The notes beneath the pieces were generated by a model. The model was not told the DNA's origin. It was given only the letters and a program-made list of their open reading frames with translations, and searched no databases. A stretch of 64,000 nucleotides of DNA from Bacteriovoracaceae bacterium (GTDB taxonomy: Bacteria > Bdellovibrionota > Bacteriovoracia > Bacteriovoracales > Bacteriovoracaceae), in NCBI GenBank assembly GCA_016786485.1, contig JAEUWD010000013.1, positions 1-64,000 of the forward strand, in the 5' to 3' direction. Positions 16,744-17,025 of this stretch are shown here, one piece after another. Every line of letters starts with the position of its first letter. The stretch's first letter is position 1. Position numbers and translations under genes: made by a program.

Positions 16744-16822
16744 GAACGCAAAAAAAATTTTATCACACTTTTATTAAATTTTTTTAATAAATATTAGTCA
16801 GTTTTTTGACTCATATTTTTAA

Positions 16823-16846
16823 TTTATGTCAAATCAATGACATAAA
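16823..16846. promoter_or_regulatory. Palindromic activator-binding site upstream of a sigma-54 promoter
   Basis: Perfect 9-bp arms TTTATGTCA (16823-16831) and TGACATAAA (16838-16846) with a 6-nt spacer. The centre lies about 95 bp upstream of the predicted start of the sigma-54 transcript, the distance at which enhancer-binding proteins of the NtrC family usually sit. The regulator is not identified in this window. Confidence 0.55.
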
Positions 16847-16902
16847 CTACACACGAAAACAAAATTAACGCCTTTAAATCGGTGCGCACAACACTCAAAA
16901 GT

Positions 16903-16918
16903 TGGCACGAGGGTTGCA
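16903..16918 (+). promoter_or_regulatory. Sigma-54 (RpoN) promoter
   Basis: TGGCACGAGGGTTGCA matches the -24/-12 consensus TGGCAC-N5-TTGCA at every conserved position, with the required GG-to-GC spacing. It points right, away from pal and into a stretch without any reading frame before a terminator. The predicted start is at about 16929. Confidence 0.75.
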
Positions 16919-16928
16919 ATGCCTATAG

Positions 16929-17023
16929 TTGTGTGTGTGTTGGGGTTATAAGAAAAGGATTTTTTTATAGCTTCTCCTTACGTCTCTCGAAAAAAAAGCC
17001 AGTCTCCATGACTGGCTTTTTTT
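16929..17023 (+). ncRNA. Predicted sigma-54-dependent small RNA (about 95 nt)
   Basis: Inferred from three signals in order: a near-perfect RpoN promoter, about 70 nt without a convincing open reading frame, and an intrinsic terminator whose T tract ends at 17025. The body contains a GT-rich 5' end, a purine stretch AAAAGGA (16954 region) and a pyrimidine stretch CTTCTCCTTA (16971-16980) complementary to Shine-Dalgarno sequences; AAGGA and TCCTT could also pair within the RNA. Both flanking genes are on the other strand, so the promoter has no coding gene to serve. It could be a regulatory RNA that masks ribosome binding sites, or a nutrient-responsive marker transcript; no known family is recognised. 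Confidence 0.55.
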
Positions 17024-17025
17024 TT
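16990..17025. terminator. Bidirectional intrinsic terminator
   Basis: Stem AAGCCAGTC (16996-17004), loop TCCAT, stem GACTGGCTT (17010-17018), with runs of A before and T after. It can end the predicted sigma-54 RNA on the plus strand and the ureohydrolase mRNA on the minus strand; the ureohydrolase stop codon lies directly next to it. Confidence 0.9.

Follow-up and report, generated by a model that had tools for sequence, protein, structure and literature searches.

Several bacterial regulatory RNAs are driven by sigma-54 together with an enhancer-binding protein, among them the Qrr RNAs (LuxO) and CrcZ (CbrB). GcvB acts through a G/U-rich seed on C/A-rich leaders of amino-acid and peptide transport messengers, and McaS, CsrB and RsmZ are CsrA-binding RNAs with a GGA in a hairpin loop. 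The element described here is a predicted small RNA gene in the window, a 64-kb stretch (contig JAEUWD010000013.1, positions 1 to 64,000) from a genome of the Bacteriovoracaceae, predatory Bdellovibrionota. It shares sigma-54/enhancer-binding-protein control with the Qrr RNAs and CrcZ, but is single-copy, belongs to other organisms and differs in sequence, seeds and predicted regulon. With GcvB it has in common an unpaired GU-rich seed complementary to CA-rich leader elements, whereas promoter, taxon and targets differ. The loop GGA recalls McaS, CsrB and RsmZ, but here there is typically one apical GGA, the control is by sigma-54 and the seeds dominate the conservation.

In the Enterobacteriaceae, GlmY and GlmZ are sigma-54 RNAs whose activator, GlrR/QseF, has TGTC-N10-GACA sites (PMC4987338). 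The present locus is similar in that a sigma-54 small RNA is preceded by palindromic activator sites with closely similar half-sites, but these sites are TGTC-N8-GACA-like and arranged in tandem, and the RNA and its targets are unrelated; Rfam gave no match of the RNA to GlmY or GlmZ. The RNA that comes closest in function and target class is EcpR1 of Sinorhizobium, a trans-acting RNA on cell-cycle genes including dnaA and gcrA (PMC4414408). The RNA found here differs from EcpR1 in its sigma-54 control, its two unpaired seeds and a wider set of deoxynucleoside triphosphate (dNTP), replication and segregation genes. It is without any Rfam match at the gathering score; no credible Rfam family was found at a relaxed threshold either. 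Attack-phase RNAs of Bdellovibrio have been reported without homology in other genomes (PMC3627812), and within the library of literature searched no paper joins Bdellovibrio or Halobacteriovorax to a sigma-54 small RNA. By the tests made, the RNA appears to belong neither with GlmY, Qrr or CrcZ nor with EcpR1, and its control is like that of GlmY, Qrr and CrcZ.

A sigma-54-dependent, activator-controlled small RNA, claimed in an earlier note on this DNA, is strongly supported by the sequence analysis. The RNA very probably acts in trans across the family, using two seeds on the messengers of replication and dNTP genes, and would most likely repress them. What the DNA itself shows is the gene, its promoter and enhancer, the structure and conservation of the RNA, its complementarity to leaders and the class of its targets. 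The TGGCAC-N5-TTGCA promoter is present as the earlier note stated and is the sole match in the 64 kb, against 0.04 expected by chance. Transcription is predicted to start 12 nt past the C of the -12 element, at the first G of GUGUGUGU, and the centre of the proximal palindrome lies about 94 bp upstream of this point, close to the 95 bp given before. The enhancer had been described as this one site, which is correct as far as it goes; a second GTCA-N6-TGAC site of the pair was missed. The plus strand is empty at the RNA, both neighbours, an OmpA-family lipoprotein gene and an arginase-family enzyme gene, being on the minus strand, as had been noted. The strong terminator proposed earlier consists of 15-bp arms in perfect inverted repeat (16990-17004 / 17010-17024). 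RpoN and enhancer-binding proteins are encoded in the window's genome. The tandem enhancer is found there at the RNA only, so that no other sites point to the activator.

The covariance search proposed in the earlier note was run with a model built on the RNA core alone, promoter and terminator being left out. It found the RNA in 97 of 129 family genomes, representing 33 of 48 genera and single-copy in 96 genomes; 240 genomes from elsewhere in the phylum gave no match. Only one genome, G058, has two copies (L052 and L069); it is 9% contaminated and the second copy may therefore be foreign. In a DNA search of relatives, 16 of the 39 genomes had homologues, with similarity that starts at the promoter. 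A pattern scan over about 85,000 species returned 62 loci, almost all of them under the titles Bacteriovoracaceae, Halobacteriovorax, Bacteriovorax or another name of the Bdellovibrio type. The homologues occur in several genomic contexts, and the pal/ureohydrolase context is retained by the nearest relatives only. Loss of promoter and palindrome in close relatives that keep the flanking genes had been named as evidence against a regulatory RNA; instead, promoter, enhancer and RNA persist even next to other flanking genes. A sigma-54-type promoter, which lies outside the model, precedes every one of the 73 copies for which there is upstream sequence, in a few with single-base departures. The 71 scored upstream regions contain 72 exact GTCA-N6-TGAC sites, which corresponds to 5.8 per kb compared with 0.0055 per kb elsewhere in these loci, a difference of about 1000-fold. 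Paired sites are 31-33 bp apart and their distance to the promoter is phased by about 11 bp (R = 0.67; R = 0.58 for 32 distinct positions). Exact tandem pairs were found in 40 of the 129 family genomes, almost all at the RNA, and none in a reversed control. The conserved upstream arrangement is sigma-54 enhancer anatomy.

The RNA predicted from position 16929 consists of one 15-bp hairpin and the terminator (Table 1), and it folds far better than shuffled sequences do (z = -6.5). The GU-repeat 5' end, GUGUGUGUGU, is nearly invariant among homologues. The hairpin stem has double changes in 4 of 7 pairs; its covariation score is reached by 0 of 500 shuffles and lost when the register is slid. 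A conserved unpaired segment follows the hairpin, (A)AUGUCUCUC in relatives and ACGUCUCUC in the window species; the second seed within it reads ACGUCUC in the window species and AUGUCUC in relatives. In the window species the anti-Shine-Dalgarno stretch proposed earlier, CTTCTCC, lies mostly within paired parts of the hairpin; the element that is conserved, unpaired and anti-Shine-Dalgarno-like is (A)YGTCTCTC at 16980-16988. The sequence of the terminator stem varies between genera while the presence of a terminator is kept. The earlier reading had the RNA and its control right and had not noticed the conservation throughout the family, the GU repeats of the 5' end or the likely targets.

Table 1. 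Positions in the window of the small RNA gene, its parts and its control elements
Feature	Position	Strand	Remarks
Distal enhancer site, GTCA-N6-TGAC, of tandem pair	16797..16810	.	AGTCAGTTTTTTGACT; 31 bp upstream of proximal core
Proximal enhancer palindrome, TTTATGTCA-N6-TGACATAAA	16823..16846	.	Core GTCA-N6-TGAC, 16828-16841
Sigma-54 promoter, TGGCAC-N5-TTGCA (-24/-12)	16903..16918	+	TGGCACGAGGGTTGCA; kept in 73/73 homologues with upstream DNA
Predicted small RNA, ~96 nt	16929..17024	+	Predicted start 16928-16931, end in terminator; covariance-model match 16930-16993
5' seed, UGUGUGUGUGU	16930..16940	+	Nearly invariant, mostly predicted unpaired; complementary to ACACACAC of target leaders
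Hairpin with AGGA apical loop	16942..16974	+	GGA at 16957-16959; loop nearly invariant
Second seed, UUACGUCUCUCG	16978..16989	+	Predicted unpaired; AAUGUCUCUCG in most relatives; complementary to GAGAC(A/G)U near target Shine-Dalgarno
Intrinsic terminator, bidirectional	16990..17024	.	Common to RNA and converging minus-strand ureohydrolase gene

Candidate targets were sought in the family with the leader pattern ACACACAC-N2-32-GGAGA-N4-12-ATG, which has 163 matches compared with 2 for the reversed pattern. Of the 33 genera that have the RNA, 23 have leaders with this motif, as does 1 of the 15 that lack it (p = 9e-5); counted by genome, the figures are 70 of 97 and 5 of 32 (p = 2e-8). In genus g50, the RNA lacks both seeds, keeps enhancer and promoter, and is accompanied by no target-motif leaders. 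About 90 leaders were read, of which 51 (~57%) precede replication, dNTP or segregation genes: thymidylate synthase (thyA), thymidine kinase (tdk), NrdA/NrdB/NrdD/NrdJ, DnaA, DnaE, ParA, ParB, ScpA and RecA. The first 30 loci in list order include 17 such genes. Representatives were named by NCBIfam, the ParB-like protein weakly, as a nucleoid-occlusion relative. The remaining genes include DksA, RpoN, a relative of IMP dehydrogenase/GMP reductase and a ribosome hibernation factor. The matches are not independent events, because many of them represent one gene recurring in related genomes; the genes cover many genera and at least 12 gene families. An AC-repeat leader is also present on the rpoN messenger of G054 (L279), so that sigma-54 and the RNA would form a feedback loop.

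The leaders had been selected for AC repeat, GGAGA and ATG only and not for a match to the second seed. At least 7 contiguous nucleotides complementary to AAUGUCUCUCGAAAA are nevertheless found in 31% of them; the figure is 1.5% when leaders are shuffled and 5% for ordinary GGAGA leaders in the window's genome. In many leaders the complementarity to the second seed falls on the Shine-Dalgarno region itself (GGAGACAUU, GAGAGAC). In the tdk leaders of genus g15, GAGACATTT is separate from the Shine-Dalgarno sequence, which indicates that the second-seed match is more than a resemblance to it.

A search of the family for the enhancer combined with a sigma-54 promoter returned the RNA and a few other genes. 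One encodes an HNH-domain protein with a predicted membrane segment, observed in eight genomes of three genera (L230-L237; G080, G081, G078, G079, G010, G040, G012 and G095) and absent from the window's genome by tblastn. Its promoter is of the sigma-54 type, and its leader contains ACACACAC and, in most cases, the Shine-Dalgarno sequence GGAGAG; these elements are complementary to both conserved unpaired parts of the RNA. The 5' end of the RNA pairs with the eight leaders better than with at least 98.8% of shuffles. Most of these leaders also have an AGGA-loop hairpin. Genus g3 has a small lipoprotein-like gene (L205-L209) with a GTCA-N6-TGAC site, a sigma-54 promoter and a leader GGA hairpin; it often has ACAAGGAUGU, which resembles the CsrA consensus of E. 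coli, at the Shine-Dalgarno position.

About 1.5 Mb of the window's genome, about half (~52%), was read and its 1405 leaders were ranked for pairing. The smc leader, TTCACACACACACAAAGAGCACAACGAGACGTAGGG...ATG, ranks first for combined pairing, having ACACACACACA plus GAGACGU. The latter matches the local ACGUCUC rather than the AUGUCUC of relatives, which hints at co-variation of RNA and target. The ftsA, purF and dcd leaders contain CACACA. A set of homologues of the relatives' target genes, chosen in advance, ranks high in this genome by the second seed (p = 2e-4) but not by the 5' seed alone (p = 0.68).

A number of observations weigh against control of replication genes by pairing, or narrow it. 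The own-genome ranking by the second seed supports pairing modestly, 4 of 150 shuffled tails being as good. AC-type leaders among such genes are limited there to those of smc, ftsA, purF and dcd. The leaders of dnaA, dnaE and hpf match the second seed only, through GAGAGA elements, and the stretches read contain neither thyA nor the nrd genes. A scan of these stretches (~52% of the genome) with a crude motif found no Hfq, and at the loci tested the RNA has no gene for an enhancer-binding protein next to it. The reversed-pattern control used in the family handles composition and not the greater frequency of AC repeats in leaders. Finally, seeds and leader elements have the same 5'-3' order, which makes one continuous antiparallel duplex with both impossible for one RNA. 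Simultaneous pairing of both seeds by one RNA would have to be crossed and kissing-like; alternatively, two RNAs may bind one leader.

The proposed mechanism is as follows. An enhancer-binding protein would sense a state, perhaps the hunting phase, occupy the tandem GTCA-N6-TGAC sites and switch on sigma-54 RNA polymerase to produce the ~96-nt RNA. The 5' end would pair with AC-repeat elements of messenger leaders, and the (A)YGUCUCUC segment with GAGAC(A/G)U or GAGAGA at or near the Shine-Dalgarno sequence, in messengers for DNA replication, chromosome segregation, dNTP synthesis and a few regulators (dksA, rpoN). With the ribosome site covered, translation of replication and dNTP genes would most likely drop. 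The transcription of the RNA, its activator, its pairing in cells, the direction of its effect and its role in the life cycle are inferred.

The AGGA apical loop resembles a CsrA site and permits another reading, possible though clearly less probable, in which the RNA mainly binds CsrA as a small decoy of the CsrB/RsmZ/McaS kind and pairing is secondary, or CsrA and pairing act jointly. The AGGA loop is nearly invariant though its stem covaries, GGA lies in the apical loop in 70 of 74 copies compared with ~8% of shuffles, a canonical CsrA is encoded in the window's genome, and leaders of co-regulated genes have GGA hairpins. In diverged RNAs with the same enhancer and promoter and both seeds absent, potential GGA hairpins are retained, two in L192-L195 and three in L225; for the g50 type, such hairpins are statistically not above shuffles. 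CsrB-type decoys, however, have many GGA motifs, whereas most of the 74 copies have a single apical one and three are found in L225 only. CsrA binding would also leave the GU repeat, the GUCUCUC segment and the matching leaders of replication genes unexplained. That the same RNA activates or stabilises the same messengers is rather unlikely. The direction of the effect is unreadable from sequence, the pairing evidence fits either, and AC-rich leader elements can enhance translation; but the match of the second seed to the Shine-Dalgarno region in many leaders favours occlusion.

A short peptide gene behind the promoter was considered, AATGTCTCTC supplying an ATG in many relatives, and rejected as very improbable: the ATG is replaced by ACG in the window species and in G021, the frame would enter the variable terminator, and the conserved parts are structural, with a covarying hairpin. 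The terminator is common to the RNA and the converging ureohydrolase gene, and it might be supposed that it alone matters, promoter and palindrome having arisen by chance. This is hardly credible and is contradicted by the retention of the whole unit, promoter, enhancer and terminator included, in unrelated contexts; the earlier note had rightly argued that the ureohydrolase gene could account for the terminator and not for the other two.

Further sigma-54-like promoters were observed in the window's genome, 17 in all (L239-L255), several ahead of small secreted proteins. L249 precedes a likely flagellar rod gene whose leader contains ACAAGGAUGU, and L239 and L254 are near-identical copies, each before a paralogous gene. 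A terminator near-identical to that of the RNA occurs at L018:404-438, near the end of a different contig of this genome, C9.

The locus sequence predicts both its own control, by sigma-54 and one activator, and its targets, thyA, tdk, nrd, dnaA, dnaE, parAB, smc/scpA and recA. Seeds and AC leaders are co-present or co-absent between genera, which provides a natural series of RNA-target co-evolution. Since the ends of the RNA match the starts of genes for copying DNA and making its building blocks, it is probably a switch that times chromosome copying in hunting cells and probably couples replication to the predatory life cycle. The chances seem evenly balanced that it is a dedicated replication switch, in which one sigma-54-driven RNA, with two seeds separated by a protein-binding hairpin, controls all replication-initiation, dNTP-synthesis and segregation messengers and divides non-replicating hunting from growth in prey. 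The finding bears on how Bdellovibrio-like predators hold replication off during hunting and start it in prey, and makes this question testable in cultured predators.
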